Origin: Caulobacter sp. 32-67-35
GTDB lineage: Bacteria > Pseudomonadota > Alphaproteobacteria > Caulobacterales > Caulobacteraceae
Assembly (NCBI GenBank): GCA_002280875.1
Contig: NCEV01000032.1
Location: 1 to 43,645 of the forward strand
Length of the DNA stretch: 43,645 nt
Reading direction: 5' to 3'
Position numbers and translations under genes: made by a program. The notes below the pieces were generated by a model. It was given only the letters and a program-made list of their open reading frames with translations. It was not told the DNA's origin and made no database searches. Within the stretch, counting starts at the first letter, position 1. Every line of letters starts with the position of its first letter. Positions 3,620 through 29,499 of this stretch are shown here, in pieces.

Positions 3620-3645
3620 TTTTGCTGCGATGCAATATCGCAAAA
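3620..3645. promoter_or_regulatory. Palindromic operator-like site upstream of ecm (PhaR-like)
   Basis: Nested inverted repeats: TGCGAT-N5-ATCGCA (3626-3642) inside TTTTGC...GCAAAA (3620-3645). It also contains CTGC-GAT-GCAA (3625-3635), which fits the (C/T)TGC-N3-GCA(A/G) pattern found before other acyl-CoA genes in this window. It is centred about 60 bp upstream of the ecm start, in the promoter zone. Confidence 0.5.
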
Positions 3646-3657
3646 GCGAAGCCTGCC

Positions 3658-4092
3658 TTACGGACGAAAGCCCCCGCCCAACCGGGTCACGACCGTGACG
3701 AAGAAGGCGGTGGACCAACCCATCAGCAGCACGCCATTGACGCCCTCTATACCGCTGACGAGCCGCCAGGCGGGCGAGATATAGGCGTCATCGAAGCCGA
3801 TCCCGGCATAGGCGATGGTCGAGAAATAGACGGCGGTCTCAAGATCGCCAATCGCGCCCAGGGCCATGAACAGCAGGGCGTAGGACCAGATCTCGACCCC
3901 GTGCAGCACAAACAGCGCCACCACCAGCACCAGGGTGAAGACCAGGGTTCGTCGGGACAGGGCGGGAACATGCCGTGACATCTCGTCCCGCGCCTCCAGG
4001 CGCAGGTATTTGCCCAGTAGAGCCAGGCCGACGCCGTGGATCGTGACGGTCAGCAGCACCATCAGGGTGGCGACCGCCAGTTGGATGATCAT
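3658..4092 (-). CDS. Small ion-channel-like membrane protein (2-TM pore family)
   Basis: A 144-residue protein with hydrophobic segments at the N-terminus (IIQLAVATLMVLLTVTIHGVGLALL) and middle (TLVFTLVLVVALFVLHGVEIWSYALLFMAL), a re-entrant pore-like region (ETAVYFSTIAYAGIGFDD) and a final helix (VNGVLLMGWSTAFFVTVV). This layout matches the bacterial 'ion channel family' related to potassium channels, whose filter usually reads TTxGYGD. Here the filter region is AGIGFDD, so K+ selectivity is doubtful. ATG 4092 is chosen; a GTG two codons earlier is possible. Function is unknown beyond the fold; it lies downstream of ydcH on the same strand. Confidence 0.6.
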   Translation of the reverse strand: MIIQLAVATLMVLLTVTIHGVGLALLGKYLRLEARDEMSRHVPALSRRTLVFTLVLVVALFVLHGVEIWSYALLFMALGAIGDLETAVYFSTIAYAGIGFDDAYISPAWRLVSGIEGVNGVLLMGWSTAFFVTVVTRLGGGFRP

Positions 4093-4120
4093 GTGCACGT
4101 GAGCGTCGGCCTGGCGGGGA

Positions 4121-4363
4121 TCAGGCCAGCTTGGCCAGGGCGGAGGCGATCTTGTCCTTCAGCTCAAGACGCTGCTTCTTGAAGTCCTCAAGAACCGCGT
4201 CGGCCACCGCCTCGATGTTGGTTTCCATGCGGTGCACGGCGCGATTGACCTCGTTGTAGCCCTCAAGAAGCTTGGCGAAGTGGGCGTCGCTGGTCTTTAG
4301 CGCATGGATCCGCGCGGCGTCCTCGGGAAACTCTTCGTGCAGTTCGTGGGGGGTGTTGCTCAT
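4121..4363 (-). CDS. YdcH family protein (DUF465)
   Basis: An 80-residue, charged, all-helical protein with the DUF465/YdcH pattern: EFPEDAARIHALKTSDAHFAKL, then EVNRAVHRMET and a C-terminal LEDFKKQRLELKDKIASAL helix. Members are small soluble coiled-coil proteins of unknown function, widespread in Proteobacteria. The start codon ATG at 4363 is the only good choice. It probably shares a transcript with the channel-like gene 28 bp downstream. Confidence 0.85.
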   Translation of the reverse strand: MSNTPHELHEEFPEDAARIHALKTSDAHFAKLLEGYNEVNRAVHRMETNIEAVADAVLEDFKKQRLELKDKIASALAKLA

Positions 4364-4469
4364 CGGTCGGGACTTCCAGGAAATGACGCCCAGCTTGGCG
4401 CCGGCGCCATCCTGCGCGCCCGGCGGACGGCAGCCTTGCGGTCGATCAATTTCGCTGGGGGCTTTGGGA

Positions 4470-5198
4470 TCAGGCCCTGCGAAACAGGGCTGATCGCTTG
4501 GTCATGAAGGCCATGACAGCCTCGGCGTGATCAGCGCTGTTCACCAGCCCCGCCAGATCCTCCCGGGCGCCCGCAACCGCCCGCTTGGCGGCCTCGACGG
4601 CCAGGGGCGCGCGCGTGGCGATGCGCTGCGCCAGATCCAGAGCCGCCGGCAAAAGCGCGTCGACGGGATGGACCGCCGTCACCACGCCGTCCGACAGCGC
4701 CCGCGCCGCATCGAAGCTCGCTCCCGTCAGCAGATGCGCCTTGGCCCGCGCCTCGCCGATCAGGCGGGGAAGCCTGACCACCGACGCCATCAAGCCGATA
4801 TTGACGCCCGAGGCCGCTAAGAGAGCGCGCTCGCTTGCGATGCGGACGTCGCAGGACAGCGCAAGCTCCAGCCCGCCGCCCAGACACCAGCCGTCGATCG
4901 CGGCGATGACGGGGACCCGGCAGGTCTCGACCTCGTCCATCAGGACGTTGAAGCCCAGAACCGCGTCCAGCTGGCCCGGGCCGCGTTGCGCCGCCTCGCG
5001 AAGGTCATCGCCCGCACAGAAGACGCCGCCCCGGCCGGTCAGCACCACGACCCGCACCGAAAGATCTGCGTTGACCGTCGCGACGGCGTCCGAAAGCTGA
5101 CGACGCAGCGCCATGCCCAGCCCGTTGGCGGGCGGAGCGTCGAGTTCCAGCAGGATGATGGCTTCGGCGGGTCGGGAGACATGGAGGGTCGGGTTCAT
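4470..5198 (-). CDS. Crotonase-fold protein (enoyl-CoA hydratase/isomerase family), atypical active site
   Basis: A 242-residue crotonase. The oxyanion-hole region is clear: FCAGDDLREA (residues 60-69) and IDGWCLGGGLELALSCD (101-117), with E111 matching the first catalytic Glu of enoyl-CoA hydratases. At the second catalytic Glu (usual context QPEI.LG) it reads AASGVNIGL, with G131 in the Glu position, so ordinary hydratase activity is unlikely. Crotonase-fold decarboxylases or thioesterases lack this residue too. ATG 5198 has GAGG 8 nt upstream; a TTG two codons earlier is weaker. It is divergent from ccrA, which makes an ethylmalonyl-CoA-related role attractive, but that is inference. Confidence 0.75.
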   Translation of the reverse strand: MNPTLHVSRPAEAIILLELDAPPANGLGMALRRQLSDAVATVNADLSVRVVVLTGRGGVFCAGDDLREAAQRGPGQLDAVLGFNVLMDEVETCRVPVIAAIDGWCLGGGLELALSCDVRIASERALLAASGVNIGLMASVVRLPRLIGEARAKAHLLTGASFDAARALSDGVVTAVHPVDALLPAALDLAQRIATRAPLAVEAAKRAVAGAREDLAGLVNSADHAEAVMAFMTKRSALFRRA

Positions 5199-5237
5199 GC
5201 CCAAGCCTCGCCGATCGCAGCCCGCCTGACCAGTATG

Positions 5238-5250
5238 TTGCGTCGCACAA
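5238..5250. promoter_or_regulatory. Operator-like TTGC-GTC-GCA site between crotonase and ccrA
   Basis: TTGCGTCGCACAA contains TTGC-N3-GCA and the exact core palindrome TGCG-T-CGCA. It is 40 bp upstream of the crotonase ATG and ~180 bp upstream of ccrA, so it could act on the crotonase promoter. The same nine-base core TGCGTCGCA recurs upstream of hbd at 20367-20375. Confidence 0.42.
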
Positions 5251-5399
5251 GATTCCGCTTGCCAGTTTCAAACACTTGTCTCAGCTTAAGCGACTTCGGG
5301 GTCGATTTATCCGCCTCGGGACCAAAAAAGACGGGTCGGCGAGGTATTTTCACCATTTCGACCGCCCCGCGCGCAGCCGAGTTGAGCTTTCGGACGTTG

Positions 5400-5410
5400 T
5401 TGCAGCGCCG
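5400..5410. promoter_or_regulatory. Half-conserved PhaR-like site at the ccrA start region
   Basis: TTGCAGCGCCG keeps TTGC-N3-GC but not the terminal A-A/G. Its reverse complement shares the ten bases GCGCTGCAAC with the site in front of maoC (29485 onward). It lies 18-28 bp upstream of the ccrA ATG, where a repressor would block transcription. Confidence 0.35.
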
Positions 5411-5427
5411 AAAGAATGGGGAGTGAC

Positions 5428-6702
5428 ATGACGACCGCCACGCTAGAAAAGTCGCCCGTGAAGGATCTCTACGAGATCGGCGAAATCCCGCCACCCTTCC
5501 ACGTGCCGAAAAACATGTACGCCTGGAGCATCCGCAAGGAGCGCCACGGCAAGCCGTCCACCGCCATGCAGGTCGAGGTCGTGCCCACCTGGGAGATCGG
5601 CGAGGACGAGGTGCTGGTCCTCGTGATGGCCGCCGGCGTCAACTACAACGGCGTCTGGGCCGCGCTCGGCGAGCCGATCAGCCCGCTCGACGGCCACAAG
5701 CAGCCCTATCATATCGCTGGCAGCGACGCCTCGGGCATCGTCTGGGCGGTGGGCTCCAAGGTCAAACGCTGGAAGCTGGGCGACGAGGTCGTCATCCACT
5801 GTAACCAGGACGACGGCGACGACGAAGAGTGCAACGGCGGCGACCCGATGTTCTCGACCAGCCAGCGCATCTGGGGCTACGAGACGCCGGACGGCAGCTT
5901 CGCCCAGTTCTGCCGGGTGCAGTCGCGTCAGCTGCTGCAGCGCCCCAAGCACCTGACATGGGAAGAAGCCGCCTGCTACACCCTGACCCTGGCCACAGCC
6001 TATCGCATGCTGTTTGGCCACAAGCCGCATGAGCTGCGCCCCGGTCAGAACGTGCTGGTCTGGGGCGCTTCGGGCGGCCTGGGCGTCTTTGCGGTGCAAC
6101 TGGCCGCCGTCGCCGGCGCCAACGCCATCGGCGTGGTCTCAAGCGAGGACAAGCGCGAATTCGTCCTGTCGATGGGCGCCAAGGCGGTGTTGAACCGCAA
6201 CGAGTTCAACTGCTGGGGCCAGCTGCCCAAGGTCAATGGCCCCGAATTCAACGACTACATGAAAGAGAGCCGGAAGTTCGGCAAGGCCTTGTGGCAGATC
6301 ACCGGCAACAAGGACGTCGACATGGTGTTCGAACACCCTGGCGAGCAGACCTTCCCGGTCTCGGTGTTCGTGGTCAAACGCGGCGGCATGGTCGCCATCT
6401 GCGCCGGCACCAGCGGCTTCAACCTGACCATGGACGCCCGCTTCCTGTGGATGCGCCAGAAGCGCGTCCAGGGCAGTCACTTCGCCAACCTGATGCAGGC
6501 CAGCGCCGCCAACCAGCTGGTCATCGATCGCCGCGTCGACCCCTGCCTGTCGGAGGTCTTCCCCTGGAATGACATCCCCCTGGCTCACGAAAAGATGCTG
6601 GCCAACCAGCATCTGCCCGGCAACATGGGCGTGCTCGTCTGCGCCCAGCGGCCGGGTCTGCGGACGTTCGAAGAGGTGCAGGAGCTGAGCGGTCCGCTCT
6701 GA
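5428..6702 (+). CDS. ccrA: Crotonyl-CoA carboxylase/reductase
   Basis: A 424-residue member of the medium-chain dehydrogenase/reductase superfamily that reductively carboxylates crotonyl-CoA to (2S)-ethylmalonyl-CoA with NADPH and CO2, the key step of the ethylmalonyl-CoA pathway. Ccr hallmarks are the N-terminal LYEIGEIPPPFHVPKNMYAW, the active-site segment AAGVNYNGVWAALGEP, the nucleotide-binding GASGGLGVFAVQLA and a late RVQGSHFANLMQA with a conserved His. Length fits the family (about 420-450). ATG 5428 follows GGGGAG directly, while ATG 5416 four codons earlier lies inside that site. Operator-like elements are upstream and a hairpin-rich convergent region follows. Confidence 0.95.
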   Translation: MTTATLEKSPVKDLYEIGEIPPPFHVPKNMYAWSIRKERHGKPSTAMQVEVVPTWEIGEDEVLVLVMAAGVNYNGVWAALGEPISPLDGHKQPYHIAGSDASGIVWAVGSKVKRWKLGDEVVIHCNQDDGDDEECNGGDPMFSTSQRIWGYETPDGSFAQFCRVQSRQLLQRPKHLTWEEAACYTLTLATAYRMLFGHKPHELRPGQNVLVWGASGGLGVFAVQLAAVAGANAIGVVSSEDKREFVLSMGAKAVLNRNEFNCWGQLPKVNGPEFNDYMKESRKFGKALWQITGNKDVDMVFEHPGEQTFPVSVFVVKRGGMVAICAGTSGFNLTMDARFLWMRQKRVQGSHFANLMQASAANQLVIDRRVDPCLSEVFPWNDIPLAHEKMLANQHLPGNMGVLVCAQRPGLRTFEEVQELSGPL

Positions 6703-6725
6703 TCTAGCCGCCTCAGGCCATCCGG

Positions 6726-6781
6726 CGGACCTTCGGGTCCGTATCTCTCCCCGGAGGCGCCTCCCCGATCGCCGGAGAGAT
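6726..6781. terminator. Hairpins after ccrA
   Basis: CGGACC-TTCG-GGTCCG (6726-6741) is a perfect six-pair stem with a TTCG tetraloop, 24 nt after the ccrA stop. Directly behind it lie arms ATCTCTCC (6743-6750) and GGAGAGAT (6774-6781) enclosing the palindrome GGAGGCGCCTCC (6753-6764). There is no T-run, so a Rho-independent terminator is not certain; transcript-end stabilisation is equally likely. Confidence 0.45.
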
Positions 6782-6825
6782 GGCCGCCGGAGAGACGAGC
6801 GCCAGTGAACAGTTCCAGGATAAGT

Positions 6826-6898
6826 CCGAGGTCGGCCGCCACGATACCGCGCGCGACCGACCTCGGGCGGCGGACTCCCTTACGCGCCCAGCGCGTAA
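6826..6898. repeat. Inverted repeats at the gst 3' end
   Basis: CCGAGGTCGG (6826-6835) pairs perfectly with CCGACCTCGG (6857-6866). Next to it TTACGCGC-CCA-GCGCGTAA (6880-6898) is an eight-pair hairpin that includes the gst stop codon. Together with the hairpins after ccrA these fill the 177-bp space between two converging genes, which otherwise holds no gene. Confidence 0.5.
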
Positions 6899-7518
6899 GG
6901 CCCGCTCTTGTCCAGGGCGGTCTTCCACGCAGGACGAGCGTGCATGCGTTCGATCCAGGCGGCCATGTGCGGATACTCGGCCAGCTTGCCCATGGCCTTG
7001 GCCACCTCGGGAACGAAGCTCATCTGGATGTCCGCGCCGGTCAGGTGGTCGCCAACCAGGACCTGACGCCCGGCCAGGCTGTCATTGACGAAGGCCAGGT
7101 GGTTGGCGATCTCGGACTGGATGCGAGGCTGCAGCGGCGCGCCGCCTTCGCCCAGGCGGCCGACATACATGTTGAGCATCAGGGGCAGCATGGCCGAGCC
7201 CTCGGCATAGTGCAGCCACTGCTGATAGCGGTCGTAATCGGCCGTGGCCGGATCGGGCGCCAGCCGGCCACCGCCATGGCGGCGGATCACATAGTCGATG
7301 ATCGCGCCGGACTCGATCACGGTCAGGTCGCCCCCGGCGCCCTCATCGACGATCACCGGCGACTTGCCCAGCGGGTGGACGTCAGTCAGGGACGGCGGCG
7401 CCAGACGCGTCTTGGGATCGCGTGTGTGAAAGACGATCTCGTAGGGGACCTGCAGCTCCTCAAGCAGCCAGAGGATGCGCTGCGACCGAGACTCGTTGAG
7501 GTGGTGAACCTTGAGCAT
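6880..7518 (-). CDS. Glutathione S-transferase
   Basis: A 212-residue cytosolic GST with the thioredoxin-like N-domain (MLKVHHLNESRSQRILWLLEEL, where the Ser of ESRSQ is the likely catalytic residue; HPLGKSPVIVDEG with the cis-Pro; ESGAIIDYV glutathione-binding motif) and an all-helical C-domain ending in the conserved GADIQMSF and PHMAAWIERMHARPAWK. Members conjugate or reduce electrophiles with glutathione; the substrate here is unknown. It is divergent from mcd, sharing the 104-bp promoter region with the PhaR-like palindrome, so co-regulation with the acyl-CoA genes is possible. The ATG at 7518 is the only good start. Confidence 0.9.
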   Translation of the reverse strand: MLKVHHLNESRSQRILWLLEELQVPYEIVFHTRDPKTRLAPPSLTDVHPLGKSPVIVDEGAGGDLTVIESGAIIDYVIRRHGGGRLAPDPATADYDRYQQWLHYAEGSAMLPLMLNMYVGRLGEGGAPLQPRIQSEIANHLAFVNDSLAGRQVLVGDHLTGADIQMSFVPEVAKAMGKLAEYPHMAAWIERMHARPAWKTALDKSGPYALGA

Positions 7519-7544
7519 GTTTCTTCCCGTTTTGTCGTTTTATG

Positions 7545-7567
7545 CTGCACTGCGACATTGCTCGCAG
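7545..7567. promoter_or_regulatory. Palindromic operator-like site in the gst/mcd divergent promoter
   Basis: CTGCGA (7550-7555), six bases, TCGCAG (7562-7567): a perfect inverted repeat. On the minus strand it reads TGCGAGCAATGTCGCA, nearly identical to the ecm site TGCGATGCAATATCGCA including the central GCAAT. Overlapping it, CTGC-ACT-GCGA (7545-7555) fits TGC-N3-GC. It is 56-78 bp upstream of mcd and 27-49 bp upstream of gst. Confidence 0.5.
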
Positions 7568-7622: not shown

Positions 7623-9314
7623 ATGACCGACACGATCACCCAGGATACCACTTCCATCGTTCTGCCCGGCCTGACAGGCCTGCTGCGCGAGGCCGCCACG
7701 GCCGCCCAGGCCTTTGTCGACAAGGTCCATCCCATCGTGAAGGCCCGGATCGCCGGGCCGGGCGGCAAGGTGGATCGCAGGCTGGCTGACCTGGAGCAGC
7801 ACGTCGTTCACGGCTTTGGCTGGTACGCTTCCTATGCAGAACTGCTGAACCAGGTGGCCGGCTGGGCCGAGCGCCTGGAGGCCGGCGGCCGCTTTACCGA
7901 GATCGAGGCCCTGCTGGCGCAGCTGCTGTTCGCCGAATATGGCGTCCAGCTGGCGACCGGCATCGCCATGAACCAGGGCGAGATCATCCGCCCCCGCGAC
8001 CTGACCCCCGATCGCGCCATGCTCGACACCCTGTCGGCCCCGGCCCTGGTCACCCTGACGACCCAGGGCGGCGGCCAGGCGGTCAAGACGGCCATCGCCC
8101 AGCGCCTGGCCGAGGCGCGGGGTCGCGCCACGCTGGAAAATACCGGGCTCGACGAAACCTTCGAGATGATCCGCGATCAGTTCCACGCCTTCGCCGAGGA
8201 AAAGGTCACCCCCTTCGCCCACGAATGGCACCTGAAGGACGAGCTGATCCCCATCGAGCTGATCGAAGAGCTGGGCGCCCTGGGCGTGTTTGGCCTGACG
8301 ATCCCTGAGGAATACGGCGGCAGCGGCATGGGCAAGACCGCCATGTGCGTGGTCTCCGAAGAGCTGTCGCGCGCCTGGATCGGCGTTGGCTCGCTGGCGA
8401 CGCGTTCCGAGATCGCCGGCGAGCTGATCCTGACCGGTGGCACGGAAGCCCAGAAGCAATACTGGCTGCCGCGCATCGCCAGCGCCGAGATCCTGCCCAC
8501 CGCCGTCTTCACCGAGCCCAATACCGGTTCCGACCTTGGGGCCCTGCGCACGCGGGGCACGCTGGACGGCGACCACTATGTGGTGACCGGCAACAAGACC
8601 TGGATCACCCATGCCTCGCGCGCCGATGTGATGACCCTGCTGGTCCGCACCGATCCCAACACGACCGACTATCGCGGCCTGTCGATGCTGCTGGCCCCCA
8701 AGCCGCGCGCCACCGACGAGGAAGACTTCCCCGCCGCCGGCATGAGCGGCGGCGAGATCGAGGTGATCGGCTATCGCGGCATGAAGGAATATGAGCTGGC
8801 CTTCGACGGCTTTACCGTGCCGGCCGAAAACCTGCTGGGCGGGGTCGAGGGCCAGGGCTTCAAGCAGTTGATGGCCACCTTCGAGAGCGCCCGCATCCAG
8901 ACCGCCGCCCGCGCCGTTGGCGTCGCCCAGTCCGCGCTGGAGGTCGGCCTGTCCTACGCCCTGGACCGCAAGCAGTTTGGCCAGGCGATCTTCGAATTCC
9001 CCCGCGTCGCCAACAAGCTGGCGATGATGGCGGCCGAAATCATGGGTATCCGCCAGCTGACCTATTACGCCGCCGCCCAGAAGGACGAAGACAAGCGCTG
9101 CGACATCGAGGCCGGCATGGCCAAGCTGATCGCCGCCCGCGTGGCCTGGGCTGCGGCCGACAACGCCCTGCAGATCCACGGCGGCAACGGTTTTGCGATG
9201 GAATATGGCATCAGCCGCGTGCTGGCCGATGCCCGGATCCTCAACATCTTCGAGGGCGCCGGCGAGATCCAGGCCCAGGTGATCGCGAGGCGACTGCTGG
9301 ACGGCGGGAACTAG
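7623..9314 (+). CDS. mcd: Methylsuccinyl-CoA dehydrogenase
   Basis: A 563-residue flavin-dependent acyl-CoA dehydrogenase, about 180 residues longer at the N-terminus than ordinary family members, which is the mark of Mcd. It oxidises (2S)-methylsuccinyl-CoA to mesaconyl-CoA and passes electrons to ETF. The helical extension is followed by the canonical domain: EYGGSGMGKTAMCVVSEEL, TEPNTGSDLGALRTRG (FAD/acyl contact), WITHASRADVM, then DRKQFGQAIFEFP and the C-terminal GGNGFAMEYGISR and IFEGAGEIQAQVIARRLL with the likely catalytic Glu. ATG 7623 has GGGGAG six bases upstream, so the longer frame from 7542 is rejected. Ecm, its upstream pathway step, and EtfAB are both in this window. Confidence 0.93.
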   Translation: MTDTITQDTTSIVLPGLTGLLREAATAAQAFVDKVHPIVKARIAGPGGKVDRRLADLEQHVVHGFGWYASYAELLNQVAGWAERLEAGGRFTEIEALLAQLLFAEYGVQLATGIAMNQGEIIRPRDLTPDRAMLDTLSAPALVTLTTQGGGQAVKTAIAQRLAEARGRATLENTGLDETFEMIRDQFHAFAEEKVTPFAHEWHLKDELIPIELIEELGALGVFGLTIPEEYGGSGMGKTAMCVVSEELSRAWIGVGSLATRSEIAGELILTGGTEAQKQYWLPRIASAEILPTAVFTEPNTGSDLGALRTRGTLDGDHYVVTGNKTWITHASRADVMTLLVRTDPNTTDYRGLSMLLAPKPRATDEEDFPAAGMSGGEIEVIGYRGMKEYELAFDGFTVPAENLLGGVEGQGFKQLMATFESARIQTAARAVGVAQSALEVGLSYALDRKQFGQAIFEFPRVANKLAMMAAEIMGIRQLTYYAAAQKDEDKRCDIEAGMAKLIAARVAWAAADNALQIHGGNGFAMEYGISRVLADARILNIFEGAGEIQAQVIARRLLDGGN

Positions 9315-12735: not shown

Positions 12736-13047
12736 AATTCTTTCTCCTGCCTCCCCGCTGGGGAAAAAGCGTTGAACGACCTGCGGTGAGGTGGCGATCA
12801 TGTTCAACGAACGCATACTACGAAAATCGGAGCGGGGGCCATATCGCCGTACTGGCGCCATTGCAACCGCTAGACAGAACTAAAATCACCGAACATCGGC
12901 TGGTTTTGATATATATGCGGGCACTGGGATTGTGCAGTGCGACAAAAGCGCTCAGCGAACCTGTTCGGCGAATTCGCTCATTGGACAGCGTTCCGCAAAA
13001 TGCGCAGCGGTGTGGCAAAGTTCCGCTCGAACGCCTATCTTCTGCCC
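12736..13047. promoter_or_regulatory. Divergent regulatory region with a probable TetR operator
   Basis: This 312-bp stretch between the small-protein/tetR operon (leftward) and the HIG1 gene (rightward) holds no credible gene. It contains perfect eight-base inverted arms CGTTGAAC (12770-12777) and GTTCAACG (12802-12809), placed between a minus-strand TAGTAT -10-like box (near 12815-12820) and the start at 12735. On the other side are an AT-rich GATATATATG (12909-12918) and the repeat GCACTG-N8-CAGTGC (12921-12940), possibly the HIG1 promoter. The TetR link is inferred. Confidence 0.4.
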
Positions 13048-13245
13048 ATGGACAGAGTATTCGACTTTCTCATACCGGCCGCGCTCCTGGCGGTGCTCCT
13101 CGCGCTCAGCGGCGGTCTCTACGCCCTCTTCCGGGGCGGCGACTTTGGCCGTTCCAATTCCAACAAGCTGATGCGGCTCCGCGTGGTGCTGCAGTTCGTG
13201 GCGATCATCGTGCTGGTGGCCGCATATTGGTGGCGCACGCGCTAG
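13048..13245 (+). CDS. HIG1-domain (twin transmembrane) protein
   Basis: A 65-residue protein with two membrane helices (FLIPAALLAVLLALSGGLYALF and LRVVLQFVAIIVLVAAYWW) joined by a charged loop containing NSNKLMRLRVVLQ, the HIG1/'twin transmembrane protein' signature. In eukaryotes HIG1 proteins assist respiratory supercomplexes; the role in alphaproteobacteria is assumed to be similar but unproven. ATG 13048 is chosen because upstream codons in the longer frame are not hydrophobic or conserved-looking. It lies 26 bp before the adenosyltransferase and likely shares its transcript. Confidence 0.75.
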   Translation: MDRVFDFLIPAALLAVLLALSGGLYALFRGGDFGRSNSNKLMRLRVVLQFVAIIVLVAAYWWRTR

Positions 13246-13271: not shown

Positions 13272-13850
13272 ATGGTCACGCTCAACAGAATCTACACCCG
13301 CACGGGTGATGGCGGCTCGACGCGGCTGGCGACGGGAGAGCCTGTCAGCAAGGCGTCGCTGAGAGTGGACGCCTATGGCGGTGTCGATGAGACCAACGCC
13401 TTCCTGGGCGTGGCGCGACAACACACCGCACATGATCCAGAACTCGACGCCATGCTGGAGCGCATCCAGAACGACCTTTTCGACCTGGGCGCGGATCTGG
13501 CCACGCCGGAGCAGCATGAGAAGCCGGCCTGGGAGCCGCTGCGCGTCGTCGAGAGCCAGGTCGAACGCCTGGAGCAGGAGATCGACCGCATGAATAGCGA
13601 GCTGTCCTCCCTGACCTCGTTCATCCTGCCGGCCGGATCACCCGCCTCGGCCGCCCTGCATGTGGCCCGGACGGTCTGTCGGCGCGCCGAACGCGTCGTG
13701 GTGCTGCTGTCGGAAACCGAGGGCGAGGTCGTGGGCAAGCCGGCGCTGAAATATCTCAACCGCCTGTCGGACCTGTTGTTCGTGGCCGCCCGCTGGGCCA
13801 ACGACAAGGGCGCGTCGGACGTGCTCTGGAAGCCCGGCGCGACGCGCTAG
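13272..13850 (+). CDS. ATP:cob(I)alamin adenosyltransferase (PduO type)
   Basis: A 192-residue PduO-family enzyme that transfers the adenosyl group of ATP to cob(I)alamin, giving adenosylcobalamin. Family signatures are RIYTRTGDGGSTRL (ATP-binding N-terminus), VDAYGGVDETNAFLG, the central IQNDLFDLGADLATP, and near the end CRRAERVVVLL and KYLNRLSDLLFVAARWAN. The ATG at 13272 gives the usual length; the frame open to 12786 is non-coding in appearance. In this window it supplies the cofactor of ethylmalonyl-CoA mutase. Its stop is one base from the stop of the convergent small membrane gene. Confidence 0.93.
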   Translation: MVTLNRIYTRTGDGGSTRLATGEPVSKASLRVDAYGGVDETNAFLGVARQHTAHDPELDAMLERIQNDLFDLGADLATPEQHEKPAWEPLRVVESQVERLEQEIDRMNSELSSLTSFILPAGSPASAALHVARTVCRRAERVVVLLSETEGEVVGKPALKYLNRLSDLLFVAARWANDKGASDVLWKPGATR

Positions 13851-14288: not shown

Positions 14289-14330
14289 TTGCGTTGCGGT
14301 GCAAAAAGGGTAATTCCCCTGCCCACGCAG
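14289..14330. promoter_or_regulatory. Two PhaR-like sites upstream of etfB
   Basis: TTGC-GGT-GCAA (14294-14304) is a perfect site of the TTGC-N3-GCAA form, and 15 bp further on CTGC-CCAC-GCAG (14319-14330) is a perfect CTGC-N4-GCAG. They lie 33-69 bp upstream of the etfB ATG. Two sites in 40 bp suggest real binding by a dimeric regulator. Confidence 0.5.
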
Positions 14331-14362: not shown

Positions 14363-15109
14363 ATGAAGGTCCTAGTCCCGGTTAAACGGGTTATCGATTA
14401 CAACGTGAAGGTTCGCGTCAAAGCGGACCAGACGGGCGTCGATCTGGCGAACGTCAAGATGTCCATGAACCCGTTCTGCGAGATCGCGGTCGAAGAAGCC
14501 GTGCGTCTCAAGGAAAAGGGCGTGGCGACCGAGATCGTCATCGTCAGCATCGGCCCGGCTCAAGCCCAGGAAACCATCCGCACGGCCCTGGCCATGGGCG
14601 GCGACCGCGGCGTGCTGGTGACGACCGACGCCGATCCCGAGCCCCTGGCCGTGGCCAAGCTTCTGGCCGCCGTGATCGCCGAAGAGCAGCCAGGCCTGGT
14701 CCTGATGGGCAAGCAGGCGATCGACGGCGACAATAACGCCGTGGGCCAGATGTTGTCGGCCCTGCTGGGCTGGCCGCAGGCCACCTACGCCTCGGCGCTG
14801 GACGTCTCGGGCTCGACCGCCAAGGTCACCCGCGAAGTCGATGGCGGCCTGCAGACCCTTGATGTGGACCTGCCTGCGGTCATCACCGCCGACCTGCGCC
14901 TCAATGAGCCGCGCTACGCGTCGCTGCCCAACATCATGAAGGCCAAGAAGAAGGAGATCGTCAGCAAGACGGTCGCCGACTACGGCGTCGACATCGCGCC
15001 GCGCCTGAAGGTCCTGAAGGTCACCGAGCCCGCCAAGCGCTCGGCCGGCATCAAGGTGGAAACCGCCGCCGACCTCGTTTCCAAGCTCAACACTGCGGGA
15101 GTGCTCTAG
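14363..15109 (+). CDS. etfB: Electron transfer flavoprotein, beta subunit
   Basis: A 248-residue EtfB. It binds AMP and, with EtfA, carries electrons from acyl-CoA dehydrogenases (here most obviously Mcd) to ETF-ubiquinone oxidoreductase. Family marks are the start [20 protein letters not shown], the [18 protein letters not shown] stretch, the [21 protein letters not shown] motif and the [14 protein letters not shown] signature near residue 195. The ATG is preceded by GGAGG eight bases upstream. It abuts etfA with no gap (stop 15107-15109, next ATG 15110), an operon ended by the strong terminator at 16074. Two operator-like repeats lie upstream. Confidence 0.95.
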
Positions 15110-16051
15110 ATGGCTGTTCTCGTCGTCGCCGATAACGACAACGCGCACCTGCGCGATGGCACCCACAAGACCGTCACCGCCGCCCTGAAACTGTCGGGCG
15201 ACGTGGACGTGCTGGTCCTGGGTCACGGCGCCAAGGCCGTGGCCGATGCGGCCGCCAAGATCAGCGGCGTCCGCAAGGTGCTGCTGGCCGACAGCGCCGC
15301 CCTGGGTCATGGCGTGGCCGAAGCGCAAGCCGACGCCGTGCTGGCCCTGGCCGGCAACTACGACGCGATCCTCGTGCCGGCCACCTCGGGCGGCAAGAAC
15401 TTCGCGCCGCGCGTCGCCGCCAAGCTGGACGTCGCCCCGATCAGCGAGATCGTGGAAGTCGTCTCGGCCGACACCTTCGTGCGTCCGATCTATGCCGGCA
15501 ACGCCCTCGAAACCGTCCAGTCGTCGGACGCCAAGAAGGTGATCACCGTCCGTCCCACCGCCTTCGCGGCGGCGGAAGAAGGCGGCTCGGCCCCGGTCGA
15601 GAACGCCTCCGGCGCGGACGCCGACAAGACCCGCTTCGTCAGCGAAGAGATGGTCAAGTCGGACCGTCCGGAACTGGCTGCGGCCAAGATCGTCGTCTCG
15701 GGCGGTCGCGCCATGGGCTCGGCCGAAGAGTTCCAGAAGGTGATCGAGCCCCTGGCCGACAAGCTGGGCGCCGCCGTCGGCGCCTCGCGCGCGGCGGTCG
15801 ATGCGGGCTACGCCCCCAACGACTATCAGGTCGGTCAGACCGGCAAGGTGGTGGCTCCGGCCCTGTATGTCGCCATCGGCATCTCGGGCGCCATCCAGCA
15901 CCTGGCCGGCATGAAGGACAGCAAGATCATCGTCGCCATCAACAAGGACAGCGACGCCCCGATCTTCCAGGTCGCCGATTTCGGCCTGGTGGCTGACTAC
16001 AAGACCGCTGTGCCGGAACTGATGGACGCGCTGGCGGCCGCCGGGAAGTAG
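15110..16051 (+). CDS. etfA: Electron transfer flavoprotein, alpha subunit
   Basis: A 313-residue EtfA, the FAD-binding partner of EtfB. The C-terminal FAD domain is unmistakable: [37 protein letters not shown], then [21 protein letters not shown] and the end [24 protein letters not shown]. The N-terminal half ([20 protein letters not shown]) is the Rossmann-like domain shared with EtfB. Length is normal for the family. It is translated directly after etfB. With Mcd and the other acyl-CoA dehydrogenases of the cell it links the ethylmalonyl-CoA pathway to the respiratory chain. Confidence 0.95.
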
Positions 16052-16326: not shown

Positions 16327-16449
16327 TTCGTCACCTTGCGGAGAGGGGTGGTGGAAAGAGCGGCGCCGAGGGGACAATCGCTCCAGAGCCTCCCGGAAAC
16401 CAACGATCTCTATTGGTCCAGCTTGTGAGCTGCACTAACATCTCTGCCC

Positions 16450-17331
16450 ATGCGCCTGCCCCCCTTCTCGACCCTGACCGCCCTGGAAGCCGCCGCGCGT
16501 CATCGCAGCTACAGCCGCGCGGCCGACGAGCTGTTTGTGACCCATGGCGCGGTCAGCCAGCAGATCCGCAAGCTGGAGGAGGACCTTGGCGTTCGCCTGT
16601 TCCTGCGTCAGGGCAATCGCATGGAGCCCACCGACACCGGGGCGGCCCTGGCCGCGAGCGTGACCGAGGCGCTGGCCAGCCTGAAGCGCGGTGTTCAGGC
16701 CGCCCGCAACGCGGCCTGTGGGCCCATCGTACTCAGCACGGGCGCGGCCTTCGCCACGCGCTGGCTGGTCACGCGCCTGGCCCGCATCTCGGCCGAGACG
16801 GGCGAACTGGACCTGACGGTCCGGGTGGAGGACCGGGTGTCTGACCTGTCTTCAGATGGCGCCGACGTCGCCCTGCGGTTTGGCGTTGGCCCCTGGCCGG
16901 GACTGGAATCAGTGCGCCTGCTCAATGAGCGCCTGTTTCCCCTCTGCAGTCCCGCTCTGCTGGAGCGGCACCCGATCAACAAGCCCGAGGACCTGCTGAA
17001 CGCGCCCCTGCTGCGCCATACCGCCCTGCCCTGGAGCGCCTGGTTCCAGGCCATGGGCCTGCCAGCCCCCGACCTGCCGCCCAGCCTGGGCTTTGACGAC
17101 ACCTCGATGATGCTGGACGCCGCCGCCCAGGGCCTGGGCGTCGCGCTGGCCCGTAGCGGCCTGTCCGAGCGCGACATTCGCGACGGCCGGCTGGTGCGAC
17201 CCCTGGCGGGCGAGGTCGAGGTCGACACCGGCCACCACTTCGTCTGGCGCGCCGACAATCCCAAGCTGCCGCGCCTGCTCAAGCTGCGCGACTGGTTCGT
17301 GGCCGAGACAGCGAACAGTCGGGGCCAGTGA
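16450..17331 (+). CDS. LysR family regulator, GcvA-like
   Basis: A 293-residue LysR-type transcriptional regulator. The N-terminal winged HTH (STLTALEAAARHRSYSRAADELFVTHGAVSQQIRKLEEDLGVRLFLRQG) is typical, and the sequence RLPPFSTLTALEAAARH with the effector domain (SDGADVALRFGVGPWPGLESVRL) puts it in the GcvA/AmpR branch. The effector pocket occupies residues ~90-290; the inducer is unknown. It is divergent from the small exported protein, its most likely local target; glycine cleavage genes, the classic GcvA target, are not in the window. Start ATG 16450. Confidence 0.9.
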   Translation: MRLPPFSTLTALEAAARHRSYSRAADELFVTHGAVSQQIRKLEEDLGVRLFLRQGNRMEPTDTGAALAASVTEALASLKRGVQAARNAACGPIVLSTGAAFATRWLVTRLARISAETGELDLTVRVEDRVSDLSSDGADVALRFGVGPWPGLESVRLLNERLFPLCSPALLERHPINKPEDLLNAPLLRHTALPWSAWFQAMGLPAPDLPPSLGFDDTSMMLDAAAQGLGVALARSGLSERDIRDGRLVRPLAGEVEVDTGHHFVWRADNPKLPRLLKLRDWFVAETANSRGQ

Positions 17332-18213: not shown

Positions 18214-19263
18214 GTGGCTGCAGACGCCCCTTCTCCCTGGTGGACGCCACAGGTCCATGCAGACCGCCGGCCGTTCCTGATGGTCCGCAACCGGATCACC
18301 CGGGCGGTGCGCGGCTGGTTCGAGGATCAGGACTTCGTCGAGGTCGAGGCCGCCGCCCTGCAGGTCTCGCCCGGTAACGAGGCCCATCTGCACGCCTTCC
18401 AGACCACGATGCTGAGCCTGGCCGGCGAGCCGGACCAGACCTTCTATCTGCACACCTCGCCGGAATTTGCCTGCAAGAAGCTGCTGGCGGCGGGCGAGGC
18501 CAAGATCTTCGACTTCGCCCGGGTGTGGCGCAATCGCGAGCGCGGGCCGCTGCACCATCCCGAGTTCGTGATGCTGGAATGGTACCGGGCCGGCGCGCCG
18601 TACCAGACCCTGATGGACGACTGCGCGGTGCTGCTGTCGCTGGCGGCCGAGACGGCGGGAACCCGGCGTTTTTCCTTTCGCGGCCTGGAGTGCGATCCGC
18701 ATCAACCGCCCGAGCGGCTGACCGTCGCCGAGGCTTTCGAGCGTCATGCCGGTGTTGATTTGCTGGCGAGTCTGGGCCCCGGCGGCGGGACGGATCGCGA
18801 TACGCTGGCTGCGTCCGCCAAGGCGGCGGGGATTCGCGTGGCCGACGACGACAGCTGGGCCGACGTCTTCAGCAAGGTGATCGTCGAGAAGGTCGAGCCC
18901 AACCTCGGCCAGGGCCACGCCACGATCCTGTGTGAGTATCCCGTGGCTGAGGCCGCCCTGGCGCGGCCCAAGCCGGGCGATCCGCGCGTGGCCGAACGCT
19001 TCGAGCTCTATGCCTGCGGGGTCGAGCTGGCCAACGCCTTTGGCGAACTCACCGACCCCGCCGAACAGCGCCGCCGCTTCGCAGCCGAGATGGACGAGAA
19101 GGCGCGGATCTATGGCGAGCGCTATCCGATCGACGAGGATTTCCTGGCGGCGCTGGAGATCATGCCCGAGGCGTCGGGGGCAGCGCTGGGCTTTGACCGG
19201 CTGGTGATGCTGGCGGCGGGGGCCAGCCGGGTGGATCAGGTGATGTGGGTTCCGGTGGCTTGA
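18214..19263 (+). CDS. epmA: EF-P--lysine ligase EpmA
   Basis: A 349-residue class II lysyl-tRNA synthetase-like catalytic core without the tRNA anticodon domain, the EpmA/GenX/PoxA type that attaches (R)-beta-lysine to EF-P. Motifs are [16 protein letters not shown] (motif 1 region), [25 protein letters not shown] (motif 2) and GASGLDRLVML-like [17 protein letters not shown] (motif 3). It starts at GTG 18214 behind GGAGG; a nearby ATG at 18203 is out of frame. It is followed 49 bp later by epmB and divergent from efp, 122 bp away: the whole pathway in one place. Confidence 0.93.
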
Positions 19264-19312
19264 GGGCCGACATTGCTTCCAAAGCCCTTTTCAGCCATAT
19301 CCCGCCGCTCCC

Positions 19313-20350
19313 ATGCCCCCCGCCCACACCCTCCGCAGCGCCCAGGCGCTGGCCGACGCCGGCCTGATCGCTCCCGAGCGGTTGCCGGCGCTTGAGCGGG
19401 TGGCGGCGCAGTATGCGGTGGCGATCACGGCCGACATGGCCGCCCTGATCGAGCCGGCCAACGCGGCCGACCCTATCGCCCGGCAGTTCGTACCCCAGAC
19501 CGCCGAGCTGGTCAGCGCGCCCGGCGAGGATCCCGACCCGATCGGCGACCTGACCCACAGCCCGGTCGAGGGGATCGTCCACCGCTATCCCGACCGGGTG
19601 CTGCTGAAACCCACCCACACCTGCGCGGTCTATTGCCGGTTCTGCTTCCGCCGCGAGATGGTGGGGCCCGAGGGGCTGAAGACCCTGTCGCCTGACCAGC
19701 TGGACGCCGCCTTCGCCTATGTCGCCAGCCACCCGGAGATCTGGGAGGTGATCGTCACCGGCGGCGATCCGCTGGTGCTGTCGCCCCGCCGCCTCCGTGA
19801 CATCGGCGAGCGGCTGGCGAAGATCGAGCACGTGAAGGTCGTCCGCTTCCACACCCGCGTGCCGGCCGTGGATCCGGCCGCGATCACGGGCGAGATGGTT
19901 GACGCGCTGAAGGCCAGCGGCAAGGCGGTCTATGTGGCGCTGCACGCCAACCATCCCCGCGAACTGACCGCCGCCGCCCGCGCCGCCTGCGCGAAGATCG
20001 TCGATGCGGGCGTCCCGATGATCAGCCAGACCGTGCTGCTGGCCGGGATCAATGATGATCCCGAAACGCTGGGCGCCCTGATGCGCGCCTTCGTCGAGAC
20101 GCGGATCAAGCCCTACTATCTGCACCATCACGACTACGCGCCCGGCACCGCCCATCTGCGCACGTCCATCGCGGAGGGCCAGGCCCTGATGAAGGCCCTG
20201 CGCGGCGCGATCTCGGGCCTGTGTCAGCCGACCTACATTCTGGACATCCCGGGCGGCCACGGGAAGGTGCCCGTGGGACCCGCCTATCTGGGCGATCAGA
20301 GCGTCGAGGATCCTCAAGGCCAGGCTCATCCCTACCCGCCCGCGGGATAG
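19313..20350 (+). CDS. epmB: EF-P lysine 2,3-aminomutase EpmB (radical SAM)
   Basis: A 345-residue radical SAM/PLP enzyme related to lysine 2,3-aminomutase. The CxxxCxxC cluster motif is C104-A-V-Y-C108-R-F-C111, next to the conserved THTCAVYCRFCFRREMVG. It then has VIVTGGDPLVLS and the LHANHPRELT and LLAGINDD strands, typical of the family. The short chain without the C-terminal oligomerisation region and its place beside epmA identify EpmB, which makes (R)-beta-lysine for EF-P. EpmC, the hydroxylase of enterics, is not in the window. Confidence 0.92.
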   Translation: MPPAHTLRSAQALADAGLIAPERLPALERVAAQYAVAITADMAALIEPANAADPIARQFVPQTAELVSAPGEDPDPIGDLTHSPVEGIVHRYPDRVLLKPTHTCAVYCRFCFRREMVGPEGLKTLSPDQLDAAFAYVASHPEIWEVIVTGGDPLVLSPRRLRDIGERLAKIEHVKVVRFHTRVPAVDPAAITGEMVDALKASGKAVYVALHANHPRELTAAARAACAKIVDAGVPMISQTVLLAGINDDPETLGALMRAFVETRIKPYYLHHHDYAPGTAHLRTSIAEGQALMKALRGAISGLCQPTYILDIPGGHGKVPVGPAYLGDQSVEDPQGQAHPYPPAG

Positions 20351-20364: not shown

Positions 20365-20377
20365 GCTGCGTCGCAGC
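20365..20377. promoter_or_regulatory. PhaR-like site upstream of hbd
   Basis: GCTGCG-T-CGCAGC is a perfect 6+1+6 palindrome and exactly CTGC-N3-GCAG (20366-20376), the published PhaR consensus form. It stands ~100 bp upstream of the hbd start and just after the epmB stop. The core TGCGTCGCA is shared with the site at 5239-5247. Confidence 0.5.
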
Positions 20378-20478: not shown

Positions 20479-21357
20479 ATGAGTGAAATCAAGACGGTCG
20501 GCGTTATTGGCGCTGGCCAGATGGGCTGTGGCATCGCGCATGTCTGCGCCCTCGCGGGCTATGACGTTATGCTGCACGACGTCACGCGCGAGCGGATCGA
20601 CGCGGGTCTGGCGCTGATCGACAAGAACCTGGCGCGTCAGGTGGGCCGCGGCATCATCGACCAAGCCGCCATGAACGCTGCCCTGGCGCGAATCAAACCC
20701 GCCGAAGGCCTGGAAGCCGTTGGCCAGACCGACCTGGCCATTGAGGCGGCGACCGAGAACGAAGAGACCAAGAAGGCCATCTTCCGCAGCCTGCAGCCGC
20801 ACCTGAAGCCGGATACACTGCTGGCGTCGAACACCTCGTCGATCTCGATCACCCGCCTGGCCTCGGCCACCGACCGCCCCGAGCGCTTCATCGGCCTGCA
20901 CTTCATGAACCCCGTCCCGCTGATGAAGCTGGTCGAGATCATTCGCGGCATCGCCACCGACGTTCCGACCTATGAACGGGCTGTGGCCTTCGCCCAGTCG
21001 CTGGGCAAGATCACGTCGAACGCCGAAGACTTCCCGGCCTTCATCGTCAACCGCGTACTGGTGCCGATGATCAACGAGGCGATCTATACCCTGTACGAGG
21101 GCGTGGGTACGGTCGACGCCATCGACACCGCCATGAAGCTGGGCGCCAACCATCCGATGGGCCCGCTGGAACTGGGCGACTTCATCGGCCTGGACACCGT
21201 GCTCAGCATCATGAACGTGCTGCACGAAGGTCTGGCCGACAGCAAATACCGCCCCTGCCCGCTTCTGGTGAAGTACGTGGAAGCGGGATGGCTTGGCAAA
21301 AAGGCCGGGCGCGGGTTCTATGACTATCGGGGCGAGACGCCGGTTCCCACGCGCTAG
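20479..21357 (+). CDS. 3-hydroxybutyryl-CoA dehydrogenase
   Basis: A 292-residue short 3-hydroxyacyl-CoA dehydrogenase of the Hbd/PaaH type, interconverting acetoacetyl-CoA and (S)-3-hydroxybutyryl-CoA with NAD(P)(H). The N-terminal Rossmann fold has GAGQMG (G11-G16); the catalytic His is H141 in LHFMNPVPLMKLVEI, and the C-domain shows NRVLVPMINEA and GANHPMGPLELGDFIGLD. The translated start is ATG 20479; the upstream part of the frame is not coding. There is no hydratase domain, so it is not FadB. It fits between acetoacetyl-CoA and crotonyl-CoA in the same pathway as Ccr, though beta-oxidation is possible. Confidence 0.9.
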   Translation: MSEIKTVGVIGAGQMGCGIAHVCALAGYDVMLHDVTRERIDAGLALIDKNLARQVGRGIIDQAAMNAALARIKPAEGLEAVGQTDLAIEAATENEETKKAIFRSLQPHLKPDTLLASNTSSISITRLASATDRPERFIGLHFMNPVPLMKLVEIIRGIATDVPTYERAVAFAQSLGKITSNAEDFPAFIVNRVLVPMINEAIYTLYEGVGTVDAIDTAMKLGANHPMGPLELGDFIGLDTVLSIMNVLHEGLADSKYRPCPLLVKYVEAGWLGKKAGRGFYDYRGETPVPTR

Positions 21358-26880: not shown

Positions 26881-26962
26881 CAGTTTTCGGTACCCGGCCG
26901 CAAGCTTCGGAATGACCGACAGGCGATGAAGGCGCAGGCTCCCGTCGAAGGGAGCCCCCGCC

Positions 26963-27888: not shown

Positions 27889-27891
27889 GGG

Positions 27892-28458
27892 CTATCCCAG
27901 CGGCGACACGCCGAAGAACACCCGGTGCAGGAACAGCACGAACAGCGCGTAGAGCGCTGTCCCGGCCACGACCATGATCACGTCGGCCATGGGCTTGGTC
28001 GCCACGGGCGGCGGTTCCCGGCGTCCCAACGCCGAGACCAGATCGACGAGGCCATAGGCCAGAAACGCGCCGAACAGCAGCGCCGAGGCCTGGTCGCCAT
28101 TGGCCATCAGATGCGCCACCGACCACAGGATGATCCCGATCAGCATCGGATGGCGCACCGTCGCCTTGATCCGGCCAACGGGACCGTTCGAGCCGGCCAG
28201 CAGGATGAAGGCCGGCAGCATCAGGGCCATGGAAGCATGACGGCCCCAGGCTGGCGGATCATAAAGCTGCGGGGCCATCAGCCGATACTGCATCCAGCCC
28301 CAGATGATCAGGCCAAGCCCGATGGCCGAAGCCAGGGAATAGAGTCCCTTCCAGCGGCCAGGACTGACCGCGACCTGCGCGTCCCGAAACGACCCGGCGA
28401 AAATTCGCACGGAGTGAACGCCCAAAAACAGCACAAGTCCCAGGACCAGAATCGTCAT
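27892..28458 (-). CDS. NnrU family membrane protein
   Basis: A 188-residue polytopic membrane protein of the NnrU family: LVLGLVLFLGVHSVRIF, then KATVRHPMLIGIILWSVAHLMANGD, the conserved HP...W..AH..ANGD motif, and later GRREPPP. NnrU is named from denitrification regulons and is related to isoprenylcysteine methyltransferase/steroid-reductase-like membrane folds; its reaction is unknown. It is convergent with the oxygenase gene (3 bp apart) and divergent from the HAD gene. No denitrification genes are near, so the name should not be read as a role. Confidence 0.85.
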   Translation of the reverse strand: MTILVLGLVLFLGVHSVRIFAGSFRDAQVAVSPGRWKGLYSLASAIGLGLIIWGWMQYRLMAPQLYDPPAWGRHASMALMLPAFILLAGSNGPVGRIKATVRHPMLIGIILWSVAHLMANGDQASALLFGAFLAYGLVDLVSALGRREPPPVATKPMADVIMVVAGTALYALFVLFLHRVFFGVSPLG

Positions 28459-28600
28459 CTGTCTCTCCCCGTCTTCGTGAGCAGGGTAGTCACGAAACGG
28501 CGTTCACCGGAAGGGACGCCCCTTGAAACCGCACGGCCAGGCGTCACCTAAGCGGTCCGTCAAGTTGACGCCCAGCCCGCCGACCGGTACGCGCCCAGCC

Positions 28601-29461
28601 ATGATCACCTTCCCCGCCGGCCTTTCCGCCCTGTCCGACCGCTACGACATCGTGCTGTGCGACGTCTGGGGCGTGATCCACAACGGCGTCCAGAGCTTCC
28701 CGCAGGCCTGTGACGCCCTGGTTCAGTGGGGCGAAAAGGTCGGGCCGGTCGTGCTGATCTCCAACGCGCCTCGCCCCGCCTCGGACGTGGTGGCGCAGCT
28801 GGACAGCCTGGGCGTATCCCGCGCCGCCTGGAGCGGCTTCGTCACCTCGGGCGACGCGACCCGGGCCCTCCTCAGCGCCCGCGCGCCGGGCAAGGCCTGG
28901 AAGATCGGACCTGGCCGCGACGCCCCGCTCTATGCCGGTCTCGACCTGCAGGACGCCGCCTGCGAGGACGCCGACTTCATCGCCTGCACCGGCCTGTTCG
29001 ACGACGAGACTGAGACCCCCGAGGACTATCGCGACCGTCTGGTCGTGGCCGCCGAGCGCGGCCTGACCTTCATCTGCGCCAATCCCGACCGCGTCGTGCA
29101 GCGGGGCGACAAGCTGATCTTCTGCGCCGGCGCCCTGGCCGACCTGTATGAAAGCCTGGGCGGCGAGGTGATCATGGCCGGCAAGCCGTTCGCGCCGATC
29201 TATGACCTGGCGATCGCCAGGGCCGCCGAACTGACCGGCAAGCCCGTCGACCGGACGCGCGTGCTGTGCATCGGCGACGGCGTCATCACCGACGTGCTGG
29301 GCGCTGAAAACCAGAACCTGGCCTGCCTGTTCATCGCCAAGGGCATCCATGGCGAGAAGGCCATCGGCCCCGACGGCCTGCTGAACCCCGAGGCCGTCCT
29401 GGCCCTCCTCGCCGCCGACAAGACCGGCGCCACGCACGCCGTGGGCGATCTGGTCTGGTGA
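28601..29461 (+). CDS. HAD-family phosphatase (TIGR01459-like, NagD-related)
   Basis: A 286-residue class IIA HAD hydrolase. Motif I is YDIVLCDVWGVIHNG with the nucleophilic Asp, but Trp replaces the usual second Asp (DxD), a feature of this subfamily. Motif II is PVVLISNAPRP (Ser), then the cap domain, and motif IV CIGDGVITDVLGAENQNL with the Gly-Asp-Gly. ATG 28601 is the start that gives MITFPAGLSALSDRYD. The substrate is unknown. It lies upstream of maoC-ribF on the same strand but with a separate promoter region at 29462-29522. Confidence 0.85.
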   Translation: MITFPAGLSALSDRYDIVLCDVWGVIHNGVQSFPQACDALVQWGEKVGPVVLISNAPRPASDVVAQLDSLGVSRAAWSGFVTSGDATRALLSARAPGKAWKIGPGRDAPLYAGLDLQDAACEDADFIACTGLFDDETETPEDYRDRLVVAAERGLTFICANPDRVVQRGDKLIFCAGALADLYESLGGEVIMAGKPFAPIYDLAIARAAELTGKPVDRTRVLCIGDGVITDVLGAENQNLACLFIAKGIHGEKAIGPDGLLNPEAVLALLAADKTGATHAVGDLVW

Positions 29462-29481
29462 ATTGAGGATCAGCGGTTAGA

Positions 29482-29499
29482 TTGCGCTGCAACGCACAA
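29482..29499. promoter_or_regulatory. PhaR-like site upstream of maoC
   Basis: TTGC-GCT-GCAA (29482-29492) is a perfect site of the TTGC-N3-GCAA form, within the larger near-palindrome TTGCGCTGCAACGCACAA. It lies 24-41 bp upstream of the maoC ATG, in the core promoter position. Confidence 0.5.

Follow-up and report, generated by a model that had tools for sequence, protein, structure and literature searches.

The closest described systems are those of PhaR, a regulator of genes for the storage polymer polyhydroxybutyrate (PHB). In Sinorhizobium meliloti, the published core of the PhaR (AniA) sites is YGCRNYGCR, which is flanked by AT-rich arms and occurs in phasin and PHB depolymerase promoters (PMC12542648), while the consensus of Bradyrhizobium diazoefficiens, TGCRNYGCASMA, was obtained from footprints and aligned promoters (PMC6201568). 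Sites of this type lie in front of genes of the ethylmalonyl-coenzyme A (CoA) pathway in the 43,645-nucleotide contig of Caulobacter sp. 32-67-35 analysed here (NCEV01000032.1, C138 in our numbering; hereafter the window). As judged from the sequence, they are very probably PhaR operators, through which PhaR would directly control the pathway in one regulon with the PHB cycle.

The described PhaR regulons share the operator with this locus and differ from it in their targets. The S. meliloti targets include exopolysaccharide and central carbon genes, and the word 'ethylmalonyl' is absent from the main text of that report (PMC12542648). The core of the window sites equals the B. diazoefficiens consensus TGCRNYGCASMA; in that species, phasins, phaZ1 and phaZ3 are repressed, and the candidate promoters include those of sdhB and an acyl-CoA dehydrogenase gene, but no ethylmalonyl-CoA pathway operon was found among the targets in the accessible parts of the two reports (PMC6201568, PMC10888616). 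Methylorubrum extorquens AM1 is itself a user of the pathway, and PhaR is said to be involved there in acetyl-CoA flux partitioning; however, no operators at ecm or ccr were found in the accessible part of the report, the main text of which lacks the term 'ccr' (PMC6520949). RamB of Paracoccus denitrificans is likewise a transcription factor tying acetyl-CoA assimilation routes to pathway state, but it belongs to the ScfR family, binds a two-box site, controls the glyoxylate cycle and senses CoA and CoA esters, and the word 'PhaR' is absent from the main text of the paper (PMC10370305). A search of the open-access literature revealed no paper in which operators of PhaR are assigned to ecm, ccr, mcd or hbd. 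To our knowledge, a switch of the ethylmalonyl-CoA pathway has been described for few organisms; CcrR of Methylobacterium is a regulator of ccr. As both the regulator and its operator type are known, what is proposed here is that a known regulator has additional targets and, through them, a metabolic link not described before.

Two independently built matrices pick out the same promoter positions of the window. The first (PHB matrix) is symmetric and was trained on 23 sites taken from promoters of PHB genes, none of them from a pathway promoter, namely 18 paired sites before phasin-like genes from nine loci around phaR, mostly of Rhodobacterales, and 5 sites from the genome of the window. Pfam Phasin_2 matched all nine genes behind training sites (three above the cut-off), no NCBIfam match was found for the genes behind the 18 phasin-type sites, and polyhydroxyalkanoate synthase and PhaR genes beside the training sites were confirmed in the few loci tested. 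Ranks 1 to 8 of the 43,625 window positions are all intergenic promoter sites, with scores of 22.5 (mcd), 13.8 (ecm), 13.7 (crotonase gene), 12.5 (maoC), 12.0 (the site at 12933), 10.5 (hbd), 8.3 (ccrA) and 7.1 (etfB). Since 11.8% of the window is non-coding according to a codon-based gene caller, the chance of eight intergenic positions out of eight is about 4e-8. The second matrix was made from 17 S. meliloti sites whose gel shift by PhaR is rated 'Efficient' in Table 3 of PMC12542648; only one of the four exoH sequences was used, and the mirror entry acyP was left out. Its ranks 1 to 7 are seven of the same eight sites, scoring 21.5 (mcd), 20.1 (ecm), 19.4 (12933), 18.3 (maoC), 16.0 (crotonase gene), 13.2 (etfB) and 12.95 (ccrA). 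The mcd site at 7546 is thus the best of the window with both matrices, by both of which the flanks of the window sites are also like those of proven PhaR sites (AT-rich, with TGC/GCA repeat arms). At a Sinorhizobium matrix score of at least 13, the 43.6-kb window holds six sites, versus a single one, the promoter of the phasin gene PhaH, in 180 kb of other stretches; at a score of at least 7, the numbers are 9 and 14, respectively.

The earlier note, made from the window alone, had stated that no phaR gene is present there. This is correct, as the sole copy in the genome (4.10 Mb, 163 contigs, 96% complete) lies on another contig (G000:C41) and matches TIGR01848 with 170 bits against a cut-off of 109.45. 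It adjoins thiolase and acetoacetyl-CoA reductase genes (phaAB), with a PhaR-like site between phaA and phaR; no solved-structure relative of this PhaR was found by sequence search. In the genome-wide comparison that the same note had proposed, the consensus TGCRNYGCASMA gives 61 matches versus 18 for the reversed control. These correspond to 54 distinct sites, 29 of which are intergenic, and the 19 top-scoring ones (five of them training sites of the PHB matrix) are all intergenic. Thirteen of the 19 belong to PHB genes (seven, in the promoters of phasin, PHB depolymerase, 3-hydroxybutyrate dehydrogenase and phaA/phaR), window pathway genes (four), a methylmalonyl-CoA mutase gene (one) and an acetyl-CoA hydrolase/transferase family gene (one). 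For TGYTGCRMYGCARCA with at most one mismatch, the matches listed number 34 (28 distinct sites) versus 7 in the reversed control, and the six perfect sites precede genes for a phasin, two PHB depolymerases, 3-hydroxybutyrate dehydrogenase, a small familyless protein and a TetR/phosphoesterase pair. Among 100 of the 103 genomic sites of the form YTGCRNYGCAR, 28 are intergenic, where 16% of the sampled sequence is non-coding. Weaker candidate targets are the genes for a propionyl-CoA-carboxylase-type carboxyltransferase and an electron transfer flavoprotein (ETF)-ubiquinone oxidoreductase, as well as panC, which has a PhaR-like site 60 bp before it (L384; position 12684 of contig C101) and is a PhaR target in Sinorhizobium too (PMC12542648).

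Within the genus Caulobacter (counts including the window's own locus, except for ecm), the hbd promoter carries YGCRNYGCR 82-125 bp before the start in 30 of 30 loci, 29 of which have the strict core TGCRNYGCA. A PHB matrix score of at least 10 is reached in 24 of 28 mcd promoters, and TGCRNYGCA is present in all 11 ecm upstream regions. The mcd homologues L354 and L355 (39% and 37% identity) and the maoC homologues L324 and L325 (54% and 29%) were excluded as non-orthologous. A first genus control, with 17 of 179 promoters at a score of at least 10, was set aside; it contained promoters common to the tested genes and was therefore redone without overlaps, giving 3 of 146.

Across the alphaproteobacteria, YGCRNYGCR occurs upstream of ecm in 77 of 80 and of ccr in 65 of 67 loci, versus 159 of 553 promoters of other genes in these loci; the corresponding numbers are 44/80, 26/67 and 33/553 for TGCRNYGCA, and 56/80, 48/67 and 9/553 for a PHB matrix score of at least 10. 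When the ecm upstream regions were delimited in a slightly different way, YGCRNYGCR was present in 77 and TGCRNYGCA in 43 of the 80. None of 200 column-permuted matrices reached the median score of ecm, and none of 1,024 inverted dyads is more enriched upstream of ecm than TGC-N3-GCA, which is present in 45 of 75 dereplicated regions versus 10.8 in Markov-shuffled ones. Of the 80 ecm-bearing genomes, 50 were searched for phaR, and 49 of them have it; the single miss, in a 1.9 Mb assembly, was the nearest approach to an alphaproteobacterium that has ecm but lacks phaR and could serve as a natural negative control. It is rather likely, with less confidence than for Caulobacter sp. 32-67-35 itself, that direct regulation of the ethylmalonyl-CoA pathway by PhaR is ancient and extends throughout the alphaproteobacteria, PHB being the signal and the ecm and ccr operators having been retained in lineages from Caulobacter to the Rhodobacterales, Rhodospirillales and Hyphomicrobiales. 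The check on orthologous promoters suggested earlier gave a mixed outcome: the sites are conserved inside the genus for hbd and mcd and across the class for ecm and ccr; maoC and the 12933 site are poorly conserved, etfB is variable and mcd hardly has a site outside Caulobacter.

The pattern YTGC-N3-GCAR, on which the earlier note had relied, has 11 matches in the window versus 4.86 +/- 1.99 in shuffled sequences, where one shuffle in 100 reached 11. It is loose, as seven of the 11 matches are genic, and the four not wholly inside a called gene correspond to a binomial probability of 0.03; its promoter sites nevertheless fit the published core. With the R-N-Y centre of that core, four of five matches are not wholly genic (binomial 0.0009). 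This purine-N-pyrimidine centre is found in all four intergenic matches, in the near-matches before the crotonase gene, mcd and ccrA, and in one of the seven genic matches.

Several observations weigh against PhaR control, either in general or at particular promoters. The short cores are hardly in excess, since TGCRNYGCA has 9 matches in the window versus 6.1 expected (16 of 100 shuffles reach 9), YGCRNYGCR is rarer than expected (43 versus 60 in shuffles), and YTGCRNYGCAR has 103 matches genome-wide versus 93 for the reversed control. The case is therefore rested not on raw counts but on position, flanks and conservation. The hbd site scores 7.1 with the Sinorhizobium matrix and is only at rank 9. 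Some high-scoring genomic sites are nearest genes unrelated to PHB (TypA, ispDF/dusB, a small protein), which together with the TetR pair and an ExbB-like gene (twice) make up the other six of the top 19 TGCRNYGCASMA sites. In Caulobacter, TGCRNYGCA is present in only 8 of 28 maoC promoters, etfB reaches a score of at least 5 in 15 of 30 loci with differing positions, and the 12933 site does so in 3 of 13 usable loci. Outside the genus, a clear site upstream of mcd is present in only one of 22 regions (L405), two more scoring weakly, so the claim for mcd is restricted to Caulobacter; elsewhere mcd may lie inside operons. Before ccr, TGC-N3-GCA comes sixth, after TAA-N2-TTA (21 of 62 dereplicated regions versus 1.7 in shuffles) and related TGC/GCA dyads. 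The counts for ecm and ccr are not independent, since the two genes are divergently oriented and start within 400 bp of each other in 24 of 67 loci. The ecm loci L117, L123 and L125 lack a site although the genomes carry phaR, while L151, in the 1.9 Mb assembly, has an ecm site with no phaR found there. Finally, an arm of the ecm sites reads CGC in the Rhodobacterales, where these sites also carry an invariable GCGAAT flank that is missing from phasin sites.

The matrix, distribution and conservation results nonetheless support the regulon proposed in the earlier note, which was to join acetyl-CoA/PHB status to the pathway. What is observed directly is the presence of the sites, how well they match proven PhaR sites, and how they are distributed in the genome and conserved; PhaR is inferred to occupy these promoters in this organism, most likely as a repressor that is released in dependence on PHB granules. 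The regulon would comprise phasins, PHB depolymerases, 3-hydroxybutyrate dehydrogenase and phaA/phaR from the PHB cycle, together with hbd, crotonase, ccrA, ecm, mcd, etfBA, methylmalonyl-CoA mutase and perhaps cobalamin adenosyltransferase from the pathway and its auxiliary functions. When PHB is scarce, PhaR would repress these promoters; in acetyl-CoA surplus, PHB granules would draw PhaR off, and granule coating, PHB turnover and acetyl-CoA assimilation, via the route from acetoacetyl-CoA through crotonyl-CoA to succinyl-CoA, would rise together. If this is true, a storage polymer is the signal for a central assimilation route, a reason is offered for the altered acetyl-CoA partitioning reported for phaR mutants of a methylotroph (PMC6520949), and metabolic engineers have one regulator over two competing uses of acetyl-CoA and crotonyl-CoA.

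As a first alternative, PhaR may bind the sites and activate the pathway, or act both ways, e.g. as an activator at low PHB, a possibility that we regard as rather unlikely. Seven PhaR-activated genes carry the motif in Sinorhizobium (PMC12542648), and 42 genes lowered in the phaR mutant of Bradyrhizobium may carry sites (PMC6201568). However, repressed genes predominate among the motif-bearing ones in Sinorhizobium (22 of 71 in module 1 versus the seven activated ones; PMC12542648), and the sites of Caulobacter sp. 32-67-35 lie about 19-104 bp before the start codons, a position that fits repression.

A second alternative is that the pathway is controlled by a regulator of its own, distinct from PhaR, whose palindrome is similar to the PhaR sites by convergence. 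Candidates would be ScfR-family members (RamB or PccR, for example), a TetR protein resembling CcrR or a regulator not yet known. RamB of Paracoccus responds to pathway intermediates (PMC10370305), and the fixed GCGAAT flank in the Rhodobacterales ecm promoters as well as a further conserved element, TAAAATTACAAAA, before ccr in Rhodobacterales would suit such a regulator. This explanation is improbable, as the same operator type stands before phasin, phaZ and phaA genes of the same genome and the matrix from gel-shift-proven PhaR sites picks the same positions. The ScfR-type RamB site is made up of a pair of nearly identical boxes separated by 18 bp (PMC10370305); in the promoter sequence, no such pair was noticed by eye, no computed test being made. 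That the sites are functionless GC-rich palindromes occurring by chance in promoters would agree with the lack of a clear count excess of TGCRNYGCA and YGCRNYGCR in the window and of YTGCRNYGCAR genome-wide, but is contradicted by the conservation at hbd, mcd, ecm and ccr and by the position tests and is thus very improbable as a whole, chance being possible for maoC, etfB or 12933 individually.

The eight putative PhaR operators and the genes concerned are listed in Table 1. The site strings quoted in the earlier note were all found in the sequence (3625-29492), and its list of promoter sites stands with two amendments, the addition of 12933 and the removal of CTGC-N4-GCAG. The latter, at 14319 before etfB, was rejected, for it has five other copies in the window, all genic, and a spacing not matching that of PhaR sites. 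The pattern YGCRNYGCR fits the sites at 3626, 5239, 7546, 12933, 14295, 20367 and 29488; the strict TGCRNYGCA fits the same sites except 7546 and 12933, and the weaker site at 5401 fits neither.

Table 1. PhaR-like sites of the window and the genes near them (positions in the window).
Feature	Position	Strand	Remarks
PhaR-like operator core TGCGATGCA	3626-3634		54 bp upstream of ecm; quoted string CTGCGATGCAA, 3625-3635
PhaR-like operator core TGCGTCGCA	5239-5247		41 bp upstream of crotonase gene, 181 bp from ccrA; string TTGCGTCGCAC
Weaker PhaR-like site TGCAGCGCC	5401-5409		just upstream of ccrA; string TTGCAGCGCCG
PhaR-like operator core TGCACTGCG	7546-7554		between gst and mcd; string CTGCACTGCGA
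PhaR-like site TGCAGTGCG	12933-12941		59 bp upstream of the 13000 gene
PhaR-like operator core TGCGGTGCA	14295-14303		about 60 bp upstream of etfB; string TTGCGGTGCAA, 14294-14304
PhaR-like operator core TGCGTCGCA with GCAGCAAAG flank	20367-20375		104 bp upstream of hbd; string CTGCGTCGCAG, 20366-20376
PhaR-like operator core TGCAACGCA	29488-29496		27 bp upstream of maoC; overlaps quoted TTGCGCTGCAA, 29482-29492
ecm, ethylmalonyl-CoA mutase, 662 amino acids	1587-3572	-	methylmalonyl-CoA mutase family (family level only)
Enoyl-CoA hydratase/crotonase	4473-5198	-	ECH_1, 4.2e-46
ccrA, crotonyl-CoA carboxylase/reductase	5428-6699	+	TIGR01751, 663 bits; PDB 4gi2
gst, glutathione S-transferase-like gene	6883-7518	-	divergent from mcd; 28 bp from common site
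mcd, methylsuccinyl-CoA dehydrogenase	7623-9311	+	6es9, 716 bits; 8ciw
Small HIG_1/twin-helix membrane protein	13000-13242	+	possibly in one operon with the adenosyltransferase gene
PduO-type cob(I)alamin adenosyltransferase	13287-13847	+	TIGR00636, 215 bits
etfB, ETF beta subunit	14363-15106	+	family model
etfA, ETF alpha subunit	15110-16048	+	family model
hbd, 3-hydroxybutyryl-CoA dehydrogenase	20479-21354	+	PRK07530, 543 bits
maoC, short MaoC-type hydratase, 140 amino acids	29523-29942	+	N-terminal part of PRK08190, 4e-42

No isocitrate lyase was found above the family cut-off in this 96%-complete genome; the ethylmalonyl-CoA pathway is therefore probably the acetyl-CoA assimilation route here, subject to the incompleteness of the assembly. 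The closest solved structures of the window Ecm are methylmalonyl-CoA mutases, and its assignment is made because of the mutase family, the presence of ccr in 67 of the 80 loci homologous to the ecm locus and the occurrence, at another place in the genome, of a distinct gene of the methylmalonyl-CoA mutase small-subunit type. It is 97% identical to the Ecm of an alphaproteobacterial metagenome-assembled genome and 94% to that of Caulobacter sp. Root1455. Records titled Candidatus Sulfopaludibacter (L113 and L116) contain Ecm proteins 76% and 74% identical to Caulobacter Ecm, and these bins may be mislabelled. Of the structures matched by mcd, 6es9 is deposited as acyl-CoA dehydrogenase and 8ciw as (2S)-methylsuccinyl-CoA dehydrogenase. 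Mcd homologues also occur in alphaproteobacterial genomes of only 1.4-1.7 Mb (G088, G098, G116 and G129). The 13000 gene possibly heads an operon that also contains the adenosyltransferase gene; Ecm and methylmalonyl-CoA mutase use as their cofactor the coenzyme B12 produced by cobalamin adenosyltransferase. The maoC product is likely a PhaJ-like (R)-specific enoyl-CoA hydratase, judging from its family and length.

In the Rhodobacterales, the ecm site reads TGCCGC-N3-GCAGCGAAT and is flanked by GCGAAT on one side (e.g. L142, L152 and L154). A conserved element, GGTCATAAAATTACAAA, is located at about -130 from ccr, mostly in Rhodobacterales (e.g. L154, L168 and L180), and may be the site of a second regulator or a promoter element. 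In the window, a lower-scoring PhaR-like site (16426-16434; Sinorhizobium matrix score 10.6) lies just before a LysR/GcvA-type gene at 16450, and the region directly 5' of hbd (18280-20347) encodes an elongation factor P lysine aminoacylase (EpmA-type) and a lysine 2,3-aminomutase-like protein.

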